From assembly GCA_905479765.1 (NCBI GenBank), contig CAJQNW010000477.1, positions 1 to 36,681 of the forward strand: 36,681 nucleotides of DNA, written 5' to 3'. A program made the position numbers and the translations under genes. Within the stretch, counting starts at the first letter, position 1. Each line of letters begins with the position of its first letter. Shown in pieces: positions 7,712 through 13,681 of this stretch. The notes beneath the pieces are model-generated. The model did no database searches. It had not been told where the DNA came from and saw only the letters and a program-made list of their open reading frames with translations. The stretch comes from an uncultured Tepidamorphus sp. (lineage in GTDB: Bacteria > Pseudomonadota > Alphaproteobacteria > Rhizobiales > Tepidamorphaceae).

Positions 7712-10285
7712 ATGAGCGCAACCGGATCGCCCTATAGCGAAGACGCCAGCCTCGCGGAACGCCTCCGCGACGCGGCCGAACGCCTGTCGACGCAGGCCAC
7801 CGGCCTTGCCGTGCTGGCGATCATAGCCGGTATCGTGCTGGCGCTTGCCACCTGGTCGGTCCAGGATCCCTCGCTCAGCCACGCCACCGAGACCGCGCCC
7901 ACCAACATGCTCGGCTTTCCCGGCGCGGCCATCGCCGATCTGCTGATGCAGATGCTGGGGCTTGCCTCGGGCGCGGCGCTCATTCCGTTCGCCGCCTGGG
8001 CGGTCCGCCTGATCGTCGACGATCCCGTCGGCGCGCTCGGCCGCCGCCTCGTCGCCTGGCTGGTCGGAACGGCGTTTGCCTGCGCTTTCTTCGCCGCCCT
8101 TCCCGAGCCCGCCGGCTGGCCGCTGCCTTCCGGACTCGGCGGCATCGTCGGCGACGCTCAGCTTTATGTTACCGGATTCCTGCTGTCGCCGATTTTCGGC
8201 GGTCTCGCCGCGGTACCTGCCGGTCTCGCCGCCGGCGTCGGCGCGACGCTCCTGATCGCCTACGCCAGCGACGTGCCGCTGCCGCGGCCTCGTCTGCGCT
8301 CCCGCCGCGAAGCCGCGGCCCAGGAAGTGCCCGATCAGGACTGGCACGCCGAGCGCTATGGCGATGAGGACGATCAGGAACTGGAACCGCCCGATGGCGG
8401 TTTCACCGTGCTCGGCCAGTTTCAGCATGGCTGGCTCAGCTTCAAGGCGCGAATGCGCCGCCGCCTGGGACTGAAAGCAGCCGGTCGCACGACAACCCGG
8501 GGCGGCCTTGGTGCCCTGTGGCGCAGCATGACCGAAGACGAACCGCTGGTCGCTGTTCCGGTCACGGGCCGCGTCGAGCCGAGCTTCGGCGATCAAGATC
8601 CCTGGGGTCCGCCCCCGCAGGAGAGCGCGCCGGACGACGATTGGCCCGAGGATTACGGGCCTGGCGACGACGCCACCGACAACGGGATATTCGCCAAGCG
8701 GGTGACACCGGCCAAGCAGCGCCTCAAGCAGGGTCGCCGCGCCACCAAGGAGGCCCAGCCCTCGCTGCTGCCGGGCAGAGGTTACGAATTGCCGCCGCTG
8801 AGGCTGTTGTCGGAACCCAAGCAGACCCGCAACAAGACGACGGCCGACACCGAAGCGCTGGAGCAGAATGCCCGGCTGCTGGAATCCGTTCTCGACGATT
8901 TCGGCGTCAAGGGCGAGATCATCAACGTGCGCCCCGGCCCGGTGGTGACCTTGTATGAGCTTGAGCCCGCGCCCGGCACCAAGTCCTCTCGCGTCATCAA
9001 CCTGGCCGACGACATCGCCCGCTCGATGAGCGCGATATCGGCCCGCGTCGCCGTCGTGCCCGGCCGCAACGTCATCGGCATCGAACTGCCGAACTCGTTC
9101 CGCGAAACCGTCTTCCTGCGTGAGATCCTGGCCTCCGAATCATTCGAGAAGTCCAAGGCCAAGCTGCCGCTGTGCCTGGGCAAGACCATCGGCGGCGAGC
9201 CGGTGATCGCCGATCTCGCCCGCATGCCGCATCTGCTGATCGCCGGCACCACCGGCTCCGGCAAGTCGGTCGCGGTCAACACCATGATCCTGTCGCTGCT
9301 CTACCGGCTCGGCCCCGATACCTGCAAGCTGATCATGATCGACCCGAAGATGCTGGAACTGTCGGTCTATGACGGCATTCCGCATCTGCTGTCGCCGGTC
9401 GTCACCGATCCGCGCAAGGCGGTCGTGGCGCTCAAATGGACGGTCCGCGAGATGGAGGACCGCTACCGCAAGATGTCGAAGCTCGGCGTCCGCAACATCG
9501 ACGGCTACAACGCCCGCGTCGCCGAAGCGACCCGAAAGGGCGAGACGATCGTGCGCACCGTGCAGACCGGCTTTGACCGCGAATCCGGCGAACCCGTCTA
9601 CGAGCAGGAGGACATGGACCTCTCGGCCATGCCCTTCATCGTCGTCATCATCGACGAGATGGCCGACCTGATGATGGTCGCCGGCAAGGACATCGAGGGC
9701 GCCGTCCAGCGGCTTGCCCAGATGGCGCGCGCCGCCGGCATCCACCTGGTCACCGCCACGCAGCGCCCCTCCGTCGACGTCATCACCGGCACCATCAAGG
9801 CGAACTTCCCGACCCGCATCTCCTTCCAGGTCACCTCGAAGATCGACAGCCGCACCATTCTCGGCGAGCAGGGCGCCGAACAGCTCCTCGGCCAGGGCGA
9901 CATGCTCTACATGATGGGCGGCGGGCGCATTACCCGCGTGCACGGGCCCTTCTGTTCCGATGAGGAAGTCGAGGACGTCATCGCCTTCCTGAAGGAGCAG
10001 GGCACGCCGGAATACCTCGAGGAGATCACCGAGGAGAGCGACGAGGGCGGTTTCGAGATGCCGGGTCTTGTATCCGGCAACGAGGGTGACGATCTGTTCA
10101 ACAAGGCGGTCGAGGTGGTCGTCCGCGACGGCAAGGCCTCGACGAGCTACGTCCAGCGCCGCCTGTCGATCGGTTACAATCGCGCCGCCACGCTGATCGA
10201 ACGGATGGAACAGGACGGAATTATCTCCAAGCCCAACTCGAAGGGGCAGCGCGAGATCCTGGTTGGCGAGGGGTCCGACGCCTGA
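7712..10285 (+). CDS. ftsK: DNA translocase FtsK
   Basis: 857 residues. The N-terminal 190 residues contain about four hydrophobic segments that anchor it at the septum. An acidic and proline-rich linker follows to about residue 370. The motor domain then has Walker [14 protein letters not shown] and Walker [16 protein letters not shown]. The C-terminal gamma winged-helix ([30 protein letters not shown]) recognises polar KOPS sequences in other bacteria and activates XerCD at dif. It acts in chromosome dimer resolution and terminus segregation at division. The linker is short compared with E. coli FtsK (1329 aa), as is usual in alphaproteobacteria. Confidence 0.96.
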
Positions 10286-10395
10286 CCGTTGTCGCGTTCA
10301 TTCAGCCGTCGCGGTTTCGCCACACGCGGATGTCAATCGGGATCGGCCGGAACGCCCGGATATTGAAGATTCCTGGATTTACGGAGTTTGCTGAC

Positions 10396-11067
10396 GTGAT
10401 CGCACCGGTCAGAAACCTGATGATTGCAACGCTCGTGCTTGGCTTGGGTGTTGCGGGCCTGAGCCTGCCGCCCACCGCACATGCCGCCAAGACAGACGCG
10501 TCGGACTTCTCGATCGCGCAAATCGCGGCGATCGATCAGGTCAGCGCCTATCTCAACAACATCTCCACGCTGAAGGGCGACTTCGTCCAGACCGCGCCCG
10601 ACGGCGGCATCACGCAGGGCCAGTTCTATATCGAGCGGCCCGGCCGGCTGCGGTTCGAGTACGCCCCGCCCGCCCAGCTTCAGATCGTCTCCGACGGCCT
10701 GTGGGTCGCGGTGCAGGACAAGAAGCTGAAGACGACGGAGAAATATCCGCTCGTCACGACACCGCTGAAGCTGATCCTCGGCAAGGACATCGATCTGATG
10801 CGCGACGCCAAGATCCTCGCGGTCTTCCCGGAAACCGATCTCGTCACCGTATCGATCGAGGAATCGACGGGCGAGGCGCCGGGGACGCTGACCTTGATGT
10901 ACGATCCCGTCGAAAGCCGGCTGACCCGCTGGACCGTCACCGACGTTCAGGGCCTCGATACGACGGTCGCGCTGGAAAATACGGTGGAAGGCGAGCCGAT
11001 CGATCCGATCAAGTTCCGGATCATCGAACAGCGCATTCTCGACGTCGGCGGCACCAACACCCGCTAG
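10396..11067 (+). CDS. LolA-like outer-membrane lipoprotein carrier protein
   Basis: I prefer GTG 10396 (223 residues): GGAG at 10383-10386 lies 9 nt upstream and the resulting N-terminus is a typical Sec signal peptide, cut near TAHA-AKT. An in-frame ATG at 10330 would add 22 non-signal residues and lacks a good ribosome-binding site. The mature part resembles LolA: VSAYLNNISTLKGDFVQTAP, then QGQFYIERPGRLRFEYAPP and LKLILG. LolA-type proteins ferry lipoproteins across the periplasm, or in divergent versions serve other lipid carriage. Position directly after ftsK is the conserved one for lolA in proteobacteria. Confidence 0.85.
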   Translation: MIAPVRNLMIATLVLGLGVAGLSLPPTAHAAKTDASDFSIAQIAAIDQVSAYLNNISTLKGDFVQTAPDGGITQGQFYIERPGRLRFEYAPPAQLQIVSDGLWVAVQDKKLKTTEKYPLVTTPLKLILGKDIDLMRDAKILAVFPETDLVTVSIEESTGEAPGTLTLMYDPVESRLTRWTVTDVQGLDTTVALENTVEGEPIDPIKFRIIEQRILDVGGTNTR

Positions 11068-11310
11068 AACGCGCTCTACGACAGCCTACCCGCCGGAGGT
11101 CTCCGCCAGGTATGGTTCCCGCGTCTCACACCGTGATGAGTGCTCGCCTCCGGAATGATCCCGATCTTGCAGACCGCTAAGGTTTCAGCGGGAACCCGGC
11201 AAGAGCGACCTGAAGGCAAAGAACTCGAGTGTTTACCGTTACTGCATCACGAATCCGTGTCCGCTTCCCGAACACTTGAAGCCGGAGGATCCCGATCCCA
11301 TCTTACTAGT
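11068..11310. other. lolA-xthA gap, left part, no gene recognised
   Basis: 243 bp with no credible coding region or RNA motif that I recognise. The open frames across it lack ribosome-binding sites and family signatures. A weak -35-like TTGAAG at 11276-11281 and a -10-like CATCTT at 11299-11304 (17-bp spacing) sit at the right end, suitable for a transcript starting near 11311. Confidence 0.4.
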
Positions 11311-11458
11311 CAGTAGCAGCCGGGCCGTGTTTCGGTATCGCCCCCGTCTCACCGAAAGTGCCCAGGCTGCTGACGTCGGAATTCCCTCCCGACGTCCCGC
11401 ACCGAAAGCGCGGACAGCGCCCGGCTTCTGCCCCCCGGAAGCCGGGCGCTTTGTTTTT
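11311..11458 (+). ncRNA. Candidate small structured RNA with three C-rich-loop hairpins
   Basis: Three strong consecutive hairpins end in an intrinsic terminator. Hairpin 1: 11315-11325 pairs with 11360-11371 (one bulged A), continued by 11330-11336 with 11351-11357, and a 14-nt loop containing CCCCC. Hairpin 2: 11372-11379 with 11389-11396, loop AATTCCCTC. Hairpin 3: 11416-11428 with 11438-11450, loop TGCCCCCCG, then TTGTTTTT. A weak promoter lies just upstream. C-rich loops resemble the anti-Shine-Dalgarno loops of alphaproteobacterial 'cuckoo'/alpha-r14-type RNAs, but I cannot assign it to a named family. It could instead be the xthA leader, although the terminator argues for a separate short RNA. 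The 5' end is inferred. Confidence 0.55.
11416..11458 (+). terminator. Intrinsic terminator ending the candidate small RNA
   Basis: Perfect 13-bp stem (11416-11428 with 11438-11450), 9-nt loop, followed by TTGTTTTT. It lies about 84 nt before xthA and about 350 nt after the lolA-like stop, so it more likely ends the small RNA than lolA. Confidence 0.88.
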
Positions 11459-11541
11459 GCCCCGCAATATCCGGTCCTATGCTTGTTCCGGTCGCCTCCA
11501 GCGGCTAGAGCGGATGTCCTGCCTTAGGAGGATACCGCCCC

Positions 11542-12360
11542 GTGCCGCTAACGATCGCCACCTGGAACATCAATTCGGTCCGCCTGCGCCAGGATCTGGT
11601 CGCGAAACTGATTTCCGAGCATGCGCCCGACGTCGTCTGCCTGCAGGAAACCAAGTGTCCGAACGACGCCTTTCCCACCAAAATCTTCGAAAAGCTCGGC
11701 TACGGCCAGATCGCGATAAACGGCCAGAAGGGCTACCATGGTGTCGCCGTGCTCTCACGCCGTCCGTTGCAGGAGGTGGTGGCCCGTCCCTTCTGCGATA
11801 TGGGCGATTCCCGCCACATTGCTGTCGACGTGCAAGGATCGACCGGCAGAAGCGTGCGCATCCATAATTTCTACGTACCCGCCGGCGGCGACGAGCCCGA
11901 TCCCGCGATCAATCCGAAGTTCGACCACAAACTCAGGTTTCTCGATGAAATGATCGCCTGGTTCGGCGCCGATACACCGACGGTCGCGCCTGCCGATGGC
12001 GCCATCATCCTCGGCGATCTCAACATCGCGCCGCTAGAGGAAGACGTCTGGTCGCACAAGAAGCTTCTGAAGGTAGTCAGCCACACGCCCGTCGAAACCG
12101 ACGGGCTGGAGCGGGTTCGAAAGGCGCTCGATTGGGTTGATGTGGTGCGCCGCGACATTCCCCCGCCCGAAAAGCTCTACACGTGGTGGAGCTATCGTTC
12201 GAAGGACTGGGACGCCGCCGACAAGGGCCGCCGGCTCGACCATGTCTGGCTGACGCCGGGCCTTTCGGATGCCTGCGACAAAGTCGAGGTGTTGCGCGAG
12301 GCGCGCGGCTGGGACCGGCCCTCCGACCACGTACCGATCATCGTCCGCCTTGACATTTGA
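11542..12360 (+). CDS. xthA: Exodeoxyribonuclease III
   Basis: 272 residues of the exonuclease-endonuclease-phosphatase fold. Visible motifs: IATWNINSVRLR, VVCLQETKC (metal-binding Glu), YHGVAVLSR, AIILGDLNIAP, WWSYRS and the C-terminal RLDHVWLT...SDHVPIIVRL with catalytic Asp-His. It acts as a 3'-5' exonuclease and AP endonuclease in base-excision repair. GGAGG lies about 10 nt before the GTG start at 11542. It converges on the cyclic-nucleotide-binding gene. Confidence 0.95.
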   Translation: MPLTIATWNINSVRLRQDLVAKLISEHAPDVVCLQETKCPNDAFPTKIFEKLGYGQIAINGQKGYHGVAVLSRRPLQEVVARPFCDMGDSRHIAVDVQGSTGRSVRIHNFYVPAGGDEPDPAINPKFDHKLRFLDEMIAWFGADTPTVAPADGAIILGDLNIAPLEEDVWSHKKLLKVVSHTPVETDGLERVRKALDWVDVVRRDIPPPEKLYTWWSYRSKDWDAADKGRRLDHVWLTPGLSDACDKVEVLREARGWDRPSDHVPIIVRLDI

Positions 12361-12384: not shown

Positions 12385-12873
12385 TCAGTCGGCCTCCTGC
12401 TCGGGTTCCGGCCCGTCGATTGCCAGGAGCCGTTCGCGGGTCTGCCCAAGTTCCATGTTCATCTTCTGGAGCCGTTCGGAGAGGGACATGCGCAAGCGCT
12501 CGGCCATGTCCGGATACTCCTCGAGCACCCGCCTCAGCAGCCGCCGCGACACGGTCATTAGTTCGCTCGGCTCGATCGTCGTCGCCGTGACCGGTCGGGT
12601 GGTCGGGCACAACAGCGCCAGTTCGCCGATCAGCGCGCCCGGCCCGGCGATCGCGACGTCCTGGTGTCCGTCGTGGCGATTGGCCGACAGTTCGACGGCC
12701 CCGGAAACGACGACATAGCCGCCATCGGCCTCGGCACCCTCGCGGAACAATGTGGTTCCTTCCGGCAGCTGCAAAGGTTCGGCCGAAAACGCGATCAGAC
12801 GTAGCTGTTCAGCGGGAAAATCGGCGAAAAGCGGTATTGATTGCAGGAAATCGACGTCTTGGTCGAGTGTCAC
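12385..12873 (-). CDS. Stand-alone cyclic nucleotide-binding domain protein
   Basis: 162 residues. The CRP-like beta-barrel runs from LFADFPAEQLRLIAF, with the phosphate-binding-cassette region GPGALIGELALLCPTTRPVTAT. The tail is a probable coiled coil (RLRMSLSERLQKMNMELGQTRERLL) in place of a DNA-binding HTH. The protein is therefore a ligand sensor without its own output. Its GTG start overlaps the stop of the response-regulator gene by 4 nt (GTGA), implying translational coupling. Whether it binds cAMP, cGMP or another ligand cannot be read with confidence. Confidence 0.85.
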   Translation of the reverse strand: MTLDQDVDFLQSIPLFADFPAEQLRLIAFSAEPLQLPEGTTLFREGAEADGGYVVVSGAVELSANRHDGHQDVAIAGPGALIGELALLCPTTRPVTATTIEPSELMTVSRRLLRRVLEEYPDMAERLRMSLSERLQKMNMELGQTRERLLAIDGPEPEQEAD

Positions 12874-13583
12874 GCCGGGACGCCCCCCGCCGCGCCGCGG
12901 GGCACGAGCTTGTAGCCACCGCCCTCGGTTACCAGCAGTTCGGCGCTGGAGGGATCCCGCTCGATCTTCTGGCGCAGGCGATAGATGTGGGTTTCCAGCG
13001 TGTGGGTGGTAACGCCGGAATTATAGCCCCAGACCTCATGCAGCAGCACGTCGCGAGTGACGACCTTCTCGCCGGCCCGGTACAGGAACTTCAGGATCGA
13101 GGTCTCTTTTTCGGTGAGCCGCACCTTCTGGCCCTGCTCGTTGACCATCATCTTCAGTGCCGGCTTGAACGTGTAGGGACCGATCGAGAAGACGGCGTCC
13201 TCGCTCTGCTCGTGCTGGCGCAACTGCGCGCGGATGCGCGCCAAAAGCACGGCGAAGCGGAACGGCTTGGTGATGTAGTCGTTGGCGCCGGATTCGAGCC
13301 CCAGGATCGTGTCGGAATCCGAGATATGCCCGGTCAGCATGATGATCGGCGCCTTGAAGCCGTGCTTGCGCAGGATCTTGCAGGCTTCGCGTCCGTCCAT
13401 GTCGGGCAGGCCGACATCAAGGATCATCAGGTCGATTTGGCCGGCCTTGGCCATCTCCATGCCTGCCTTGGCGCATTCCGCCGTCGCGGTCGAAAATTCG
13501 TCGTGCAGCGCCAGTTGCTCGACAAGGGCCTCGCGCAGATCCGTGTCGTCGTCGACGATGAGGATATGCTTCGACGTGCTCAT
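12870..13583 (-). CDS. OmpR/PhoB-family response regulator
   Basis: 237 residues from ATG 13583, preceded by GGAGA about 9 nt upstream; the longer frame from 13652 adds non-homologous residues. The receiver domain has the acidic cluster DDD (11-13), phospho-acceptor D56 (LMILDVGLPDMDG) and K106 (YITKPF). The C-terminal winged helix (VRLTEKETSILKFLYRAGEKVVTR...THTLETHIYRLRQKIE) is of OmpR type. No histidine kinase gene is adjacent, so it is an orphan regulator here. It is coupled to the cyclic-nucleotide-binding gene and divergent from the L,D-transpeptidase-like gene. Confidence 0.92.
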   Translation of the reverse strand: MSTSKHILIVDDDTDLREALVEQLALHDEFSTATAECAKAGMEMAKAGQIDLMILDVGLPDMDGREACKILRKHGFKAPIIMLTGHISDSDTILGLESGANDYITKPFRFAVLLARIRAQLRQHEQSEDAVFSIGPYTFKPALKMMVNEQGQKVRLTEKETSILKFLYRAGEKVVTRDVLLHEVWGYNSGVTTHTLETHIYRLRQKIERDPSSAELLVTEGGGYKLVPRGAAGGVPA

Positions 13584-13634
13584 GGGCCGATTCTCCGAAA
13601 GGTCGCGCTTGTCCCCCGCACCGATGTAGAACAC

Positions 13635-13647
13635 GTTGGTTACCAAC
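13635..13647. promoter_or_regulatory. Palindrome GTTGGT-T-ACCAAC between divergent genes
   Basis: A perfect 6-bp inverted repeat around one central T, in the 98-bp gap between the response-regulator and L,D-transpeptidase-like genes. The position suits an operator. The binding protein is unknown; OmpR-family regulators more often bind direct repeats, so autoregulation is not assumed. Confidence 0.3.
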
Positions 13648-13681
13648 CGCAAGACGGCTTAGTCGGCGAGGCGAGGGAGAC

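Follow-up and report, generated by a model that had tools for sequence, protein, structure and literature searches.

The 36,681-nucleotide stretch analyzed here (the window), from an uncultured Tepidamorphus sp. of the Alphaproteobacteria, carries in the gap between lolA and xthA (11068-11541) a structured element at 11311-11458 on the + strand. This element is probably an independent gene for a small regulatory RNA (sRNA) that acts in trans by loop pairing and is a member of an undescribed family. Judged by sequence comparison, the RNA family is real, new to Rfam 15 and yet of a known general kind, and it spans many families of the window's order (Hyphomicrobiales) as well as several other alphaproteobacterial lineages. 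Its structure is held by compensatory changes, while the tip of its first hairpin varies far less than the stems; the first loop carries the constraint.

A conserved RNA family

A plain DNA search of 61 genomes returned eight matches outside the window's own genome at E <= 2e-4, six of which lie behind ftsK-lolA (G001, G002, G006, G035, G007, and G059). We built a core covariance model, R1, from the window and six relatives; at E <= 0.1 it had hits in 106 of the 249 genomes searched in the order. A whole-RNA covariance model, R2, was then derived from 13 sequences found via R1, with the window kept out of the training set; it recovered the window at 1.2e-15 and, with a cutoff of E <= 0.01, gave matches in 152 of the 397 genomes searched in the order, usually one strong match per genome (E-values of the models are rough owing to a shortened calibration). 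The DNA-search match in G019, without ftsK-lolA neighbours, is a member by both models, and neither model matches the one in G051 (41 nt). In the draw of genomes from the class, R2 matched 36 of 385, including the window's genome, and for 28 genomes outside the order the match was at E <= 1e-4. The draw from the phylum gave 16 of 398 genomes, three of them outside Alphaproteobacteria at E 0.004-0.006, which is about the chance expectation. Furthermore, when named genomes were scanned for an exact pattern of the first hairpin's tip, 85 stretches were found, with carriers including Hyphomicrobium, Filomicrobium, Kaistia, Methyloceanibacter, Methyloligella, Rhodomicrobium, Prosthecomicrobium, Chthonobacter, and many metagenome bins.

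For the analyses of structure, 85 sequences (76 from the order, taken from a set of 90 loci, and nine from other orders) were aligned to R2. Four loci that resembled included ones in score and place (L055, L057, L070, and L076) and ten others were left out of this alignment. Of the ten, L111, L112, L117, L118, and L119 were omitted for their poor fit to R1 (R2 48-79 bits, loop-1 C-run kept); L099 and L106 score 36 and 33 bits with R2, and L115, L113, and L116 are weak (30, 22, and 19 bits). A larger set of 105 loci comprised the 85 and 20 loci from the class and phylum searches.

The minimum free energy of 11311-11458 was -79.6 kcal/mol, against -52.3 +/- 3.9 in 200 dinucleotide shuffles (z -7.0), none of which folded as well. 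Four hairpins, P1 to P4, make up this fold:

11311..11458, + strand: candidate sRNA gene (fold at z -7; R2 match at 11312-11457, E 1.2e-15; covariation in 85 relatives)
11315..11371, + strand: hairpin P1, with an outer stem, an asymmetric internal loop, and the inner stem TTTCGGT/ACCGAAA (fold; alignment)
11340..11349, + strand: P1 tip GCCCCCGTCT, presumed main pairing site (the ten columns of highest information in the alignment)
11372..11396, + strand: hairpin P2, with loop AATTCCCTC at 11380-11388 (fold; helix 5, 98.8% paired)
11397..11413, + strand: small hairpin P3 (CCGC/GCGG), with a second ACCGAAA in its loop (fold; helix 6, 91.1% paired)
11416..11458, + strand: intrinsic terminator P4, with a C-rich loop and U tail (fold, pattern scan; helix 7, 99.2% paired)

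The stem-loop of P4 covers 11416-11450, is followed by TTTGTTTTT, and was also recovered by a terminator pattern scan. A sequence-only reading of this DNA, made earlier, had described three stacked hairpins ending in a terminator; P1, P2, and P4 correspond to these, and the small P3 had been overlooked. Its proposal that the stems should covary across Hyphomicrobiales was borne out by the 85-sequence alignment, in which two-sided changes occurred in 34 of 35 pairs (595 cells) and, for P1 helices 1-4, in all 15 pairs. Standard pairs filled 95.1% of the paired cells, compared with 74.9% in shuffles, and the share fell to 31-46% when the partner was slid by one to three columns; the covariation score was 0.584 versus 0.207 in shuffles. 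From a plain, unfitted MAFFT alignment of the 13 sequences, RNAalifold, unaided, recovered both stems of P1 as well as P2 and the terminator, and did not recover P3. In the paired columns GU/UG outnumbered AC/CA (170 versus 34, alignment fitted to the + strand), which fits the + strand as the RNA.

The sequence-only reading had also seen that ACCGAAA occurs twice, and both copies were found (11351-11357 and 11401-11407). It took them as a sign of a switch between two folds, in which TTTCGGT would pair with either copy. When TTTCGGT was forced onto the second copy, the fold reached only -64.5 kcal/mol, 15.1 kcal/mol worse, with pair probabilities below 1e-9. The inner stem could be located in 52 of the 105 members, and an exact repeat of its 3' arm was present in one of these, namely the window itself. 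A two-state switch is therefore hardly credible.

The ten most conserved columns, with a mean of 1.80 of 2 bits, form the P1 tip, GCCCCCCGUC, and the second most conserved motif is CCCUCCCGGC around the P2 loop. The window's loops read ATCGCCCCCGTCTC in P1, AATTCCCTC in P2, and a CCCCCC run in P4; those of the printed relatives are of the GCCCCCCGTCT and TCCCTCCC types. Three C-rich loops, as claimed from the sequence alone, are thus present in the window, and their retention is graded: CCCC was kept in loop 1 by 84 of 85 sequences (a figure that would drop were L099 and L106 included), CCC in loop 2 by 74, and a C-run in the terminator loop (loop 3) by only 63, with C-runs in all three loops in 52. 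The P1 tip CCCCCGTCT was exact in 64 of 87 members of the order, and the printed members from other orders mostly had GCGUUGCCCCCCCGCUUGC at this place. The further suggestion that the loops resemble anti-Shine-Dalgarno sequences holds for loop 2 (CCCUCCC), which contains one; loop 1, GCCCCCCGUCU, is not a plain anti-Shine-Dalgarno sequence.

Two variants of the loops were also observed. A second sequence class of the RNA has loop 1 UGCCCCCCGCUCGA or similar and a P2 of the CCCCUCCCG type (L090, L094, L095, L101, L103, L105, and L107). Eleven members lack the P2-loop C-run with loop 1 kept (L042, L058, L065, L081, L089, L092, L093, L098, L100, L102, and L108), suggesting that the loops can go one at a time.

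Promoter and genomic neighbourhood

The genes and promoter elements around the candidate are as follows:

7712..10285, + strand: ftsK, conserved upstream neighbour (Pfam FtsK_SpoIIIE, FtsK_alpha, FtsK_gamma, FtsK_4TM)
10330..11067, + strand: lolA, conserved upstream neighbour (Pfam LolA 2.7e-28; synteny)
11276..11281, + strand: -35 box TTGAAG of the presumed sRNA promoter (TTGA position conserved in the order, weaker elsewhere)
11299..11304, + strand: -10-like hexamer CATCTT, 17-nt spacer to the -35 box (read from the sequence; similar, AT-richer hexamers in relatives by eye only)
11542..12360, + strand: xthA-like exonuclease III gene, frequent downstream neighbour (Pfam Exo_endo_phos 1e-28; synteny)

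Among the 76 members of the order, TTGA was counted 59 times in the bin from -40 to -31 relative to the model start, compared with one to six times in the other 10-nt bins to -250. This agrees with the weak promoter proposed in the sequence-only reading, whose TTGAAG, spacer, and CATCTT are all present, though a strict sigma-70 promoter scan found no promoter upstream of 11311. The 5' end near 11311, proposed in the same reading, is likewise supported by comparison. The EcfG-type motif, GGAAC N15-18 CGTT, was found within 80 nt upstream in none of the 105 loci.

According to tblastn, lolA/ftsK upstream and/or xthA downstream accompany the RNA in 87 of the 105 loci (67 of 76 in the order and 20 of 29 in other orders), with both sides present in 45, and every match to these neighbours has the same orientation as in the window. 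Several Hyphomicrobium-type members have kept lolA and have no xthA within 1.5 kb (L034, L036, and L037 are among the members without xthA there). In three other-order loci examined (L235, L241, and L243), a gene for a protein of ~207 amino acids lies between the RNA and xthA. In the window, genes for a protein with a cyclic-nucleotide-binding domain and an OmpR-type response regulator (Pfam Response_reg, Trans_reg_C) are convergent to xthA at 12388-13652 on the - strand.

Proposed action, candidate targets and alternatives

The features expected of a trans-acting base-pairing sRNA in general, namely a promoter box, a terminator, and a conserved accessible site, were all recognized at the level of sequence. 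We propose that the RNA would be transcribed from a housekeeping (RpoD-type) promoter and that Hfq or a similar chaperone may hold its U tail. The rigid stems would present the C-rich tips, GCCCCCCGUCU in P1 and UUCCCUCCC in P2, for pairing with G-rich stretches of mRNA leaders, and in the case of loop 2 with Shine-Dalgarno sequences; such pairing would alter the translation or stability of several mRNAs. Pairing of the C-rich tips with mRNA leaders is the probable mode of action by analogy, since it is the one described in passages on alpha-r14/NfeR1 (PMC7143759, PMC3927594) and resembles that of GsrN (PMC5869019).

Exact complements of the 10-nt P1 tip were located at 51 places in four genomes, four of them antisense of the RNA itself, against 27 places for a reversed-pattern control. 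Among the 30 places that were read, two lie 30-40 nt before a start codon with a good Shine-Dalgarno sequence, one belonging to rpoH (G000, the window's genome) and one to a small open reading frame, pilin-like by eye (G001). In the rpoH leader of G000, the perfect 10-nt complement starts 40 nt before the start codon and a strong Shine-Dalgarno sequence follows; rpoH was chosen post hoc, after this match had been noticed. We then compared rpoH leaders with each genome's own loop. The longest perfect matches, with the number of 500 mononucleotide shuffles reaching them in brackets, were 10 nt in G000 (0), 8 in G001 (5), 6 in G002 (251), 7 in G006 (103), 6 in G007 (288), 5 in G059 (422), 8 in G091 (16), 8 in G243 (15), and 4 in G169 (495), the rpoH start codons of G007 and G091 being uncertain. 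The duplex energy in G000 was -22.9, compared with -7.9 to -19.6 for 30 open reading frames of the window, and it was -19.0 in G001, -15.4 in G002, and -19.0 in G006. As a first candidate target, rpoH is thus a weak one. A separate observation is that the rpoH leaders of the window's family (L310, that is G000:C340 ~2617-2626, and L314-L317) share a G-rich GGGGGC of the GCCGCAAGAGGAGG type just before the Shine-Dalgarno sequence, and this stretch may itself be a cis structure.

Some observations weigh against the interpretation as a widespread, independent regulatory RNA. R2 found no match in 245 of the 397 genomes of the order, which suggests that the RNA was lost, was moved, or drifted past the model in large clades. 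For 18 genomes of the order that R2 had not matched, 20 stretches adjoining ftsK or xthA went through a filters-off search: L269, where GCCCCCCGUCUC is retained, scored best (E 1.6e-4), L270 came next (8.7e-4), and the other stretches were at E >= 0.011. The 85-sequence alignment was fitted to the R2 structure and is biased towards it. In this alignment the C-run is absent from loop 2 in 11 sequences and from the terminator loop in 22. L099 and L106, outside the alignment, have no loop-1 C-run and carry the tip GCCTTCGGGC, with the rest matching R2 at 33-36 bits. Only 12 of the 29 loci outside the order have TTGA in the -35 position, and neither neighbour was detected by tblastn in 18 of the 105 loci, some with only ~400 bases of flank. 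Finally, in five of the nine genomes (G002, G006, G007, G059, and G169) the rpoH pairing did not exceed chance.

Several other explanations were considered. C-rich loops on stable stems, all three kept in over half of the aligned sequences, might serve as repeated protein sites on a rigid scaffold, and the RNA would then be a decoy. The C-binding protein captured could be, for example, a cold-shock protein or Rho, which prefers C-rich RNA. Against such a decoy, the P1 tip of the order is often conserved past its C-run, as seen from the exact tips and the ten columns above, an argument limited by the other orders, which read GCUUGC after the C-run. The losses of the C-run from loops 2 and 3 point the same way, and we regard protein binding as a rather unlikely explanation. 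The element might also act only in cis, as a stable 3' untranslated fragment of lolA mRNA with its terminator or as an attenuator before xthA. Its strand, its place in the lolA-xthA gap, its strong terminator, and the weakness of the -35 box outside the order would suit this. Within the order, however, the box is conserved, and a promoter box of its own argues against the RNA being the mere 3' end of lolA. Moreover, xthA is out of reach or behind an intervening gene in the loci named above, and the most conserved part is a hairpin tip that a mere terminator would not need, so that a purely cis role seems quite unlikely. That the stretch encodes a small protein, with the structure incidental, is very improbable: open frames exist at 11276-11527 (+) and 11306-11467 (-), but each frame is open in at most 49 of the 105 relatives, their lengths fall in all three classes modulo 3, and the compensatory changes track the stems.

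A trans-acting sRNA gene is hence the explanation that we favor. That several lineages of a single class share these neighbours, this fold, and the pairing tip points to an old regulatory job, probably shared in Alphaproteobacteria, and this in a setting where many bacterial sRNAs are limited to closely related species (PMC4414408, in the passage concerned). A bolder scenario, and an unlikely one as a whole, is that an ancient sRNA was present early in Alphaproteobacteria, stayed beside ftsK-lolA, and uses its P1 tip to control a central stress regulator, which in the window's lineage would be rpoH, thereby linking envelope or division genes to heat-shock control. With R2, and with named genera that carry the exact tip (Hyphomicrobium, Filomicrobium, Kaistia, Methyloceanibacter, Rhodomicrobium, and Chthonobacter), the RNA becomes testable in cultured strains.

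Comparison with known small RNAs

At the curated gathering thresholds, Rfam 15 gave no match in the whole window, in 20 relatives' loci, or in 16 further loci, and the best sub-threshold match in the gap was Scr3202 (24 bits versus 52 required). The sequence-only reading, which could place the RNA in no family, was right in this respect, and a family absent from Rfam 15 is absent from routine annotation as well. In the openly licensed main texts, among the matches listed, no sRNA was reported at this locus, and six loop strings of the RNA had no literature match. Where the main texts of PMC3927594, PMC2873474, and PMC5988900 mention lolA, xthA, or ftsK, they describe no such sRNA, and in passages from a transcription map of a methanotroph EcpR1 and alpha-r45 are the only sRNAs named (PMC12403871). 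The comparisons below draw on passages of the papers cited.

Among RNAs with an exposed C-rich loop, GsrN of Caulobacter is alike in having this loop at its 5' side, where it pairs with the katG leader (PMC5869019). Here, in contrast, a TTGA -35 box takes the place of the EcfG-type promoter, and the neighbours in 87 of 105 loci are ftsK-lolA/xthA rather than a general-stress locus (Caulobacter itself is an exception to that placement; PMC5869019). GsrN membership was rejected on both counts. PmaR of Agrobacterium also has an accessible C-rich loop, but it is described only from Agrobacterium and one Rhizobium strain, with a spoon-like fold and between two hypothetical genes (PMC6234868); its place and loop exclude it. 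EcpR1 (SmelC291), a widespread Rhizobiales sRNA, resembles the present RNA in its GC-rich hairpin tip, which is strongly conserved and through which EcpR1 pairs with mRNAs, whereas it adjoins divK-pleD and rpmG, has the loop UCCGCCGCAUCU, and consists of two stem-loop domains (PMC4414408); neither this loop nor an rpmG neighbour was seen here. The alpha-r8 RNAs (SisA-D, MmgR) share a conserved C/U-rich pairing stretch and alphaproteobacterial spread, but their UUUCCUCCCU is single-stranded and they usually lie beside a putative N-formylglutamate amidohydrolase gene (PMC12559287). Neither trait was found for the present RNA, so it is not of the alpha-r8/SuhB type. SmelC023 (beside polA) and SmelC289 (beside the prolyl-tRNA synthetase gene) were set aside by place, and SmelC671 by its single-stranded CUCCCUGU.

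The sequence-only reading had pointed to alpha-r14-type RNAs, and here the likeness of design stands while family membership does not. Alpha-r14/NfeR1 (the SmelA075 family), described from Rhizobiaceae, Brucellaceae, and Phyllobacteriaceae, has three hairpins with variable stems, conserved C/U-rich loops, and redundant pairing sites, and a sigma-70 promoter with conserved residues (PMC7143759, PMC3927594). Its loops carry CCUCCUCCC, which is absent from the window's loops, and it occurs in several copies per genome; the present RNA has GCCCCCCGUCU and UUCCCUCCC, usually a single strong match, ftsK-lolA neighbours, an extra small hairpin, and no Rfam match. At the level of sequence, the hairpins with variable stems and conserved loops and the sigma-70 promoter shared with alpha-r14/NfeR1 are a likeness of design, not kinship.
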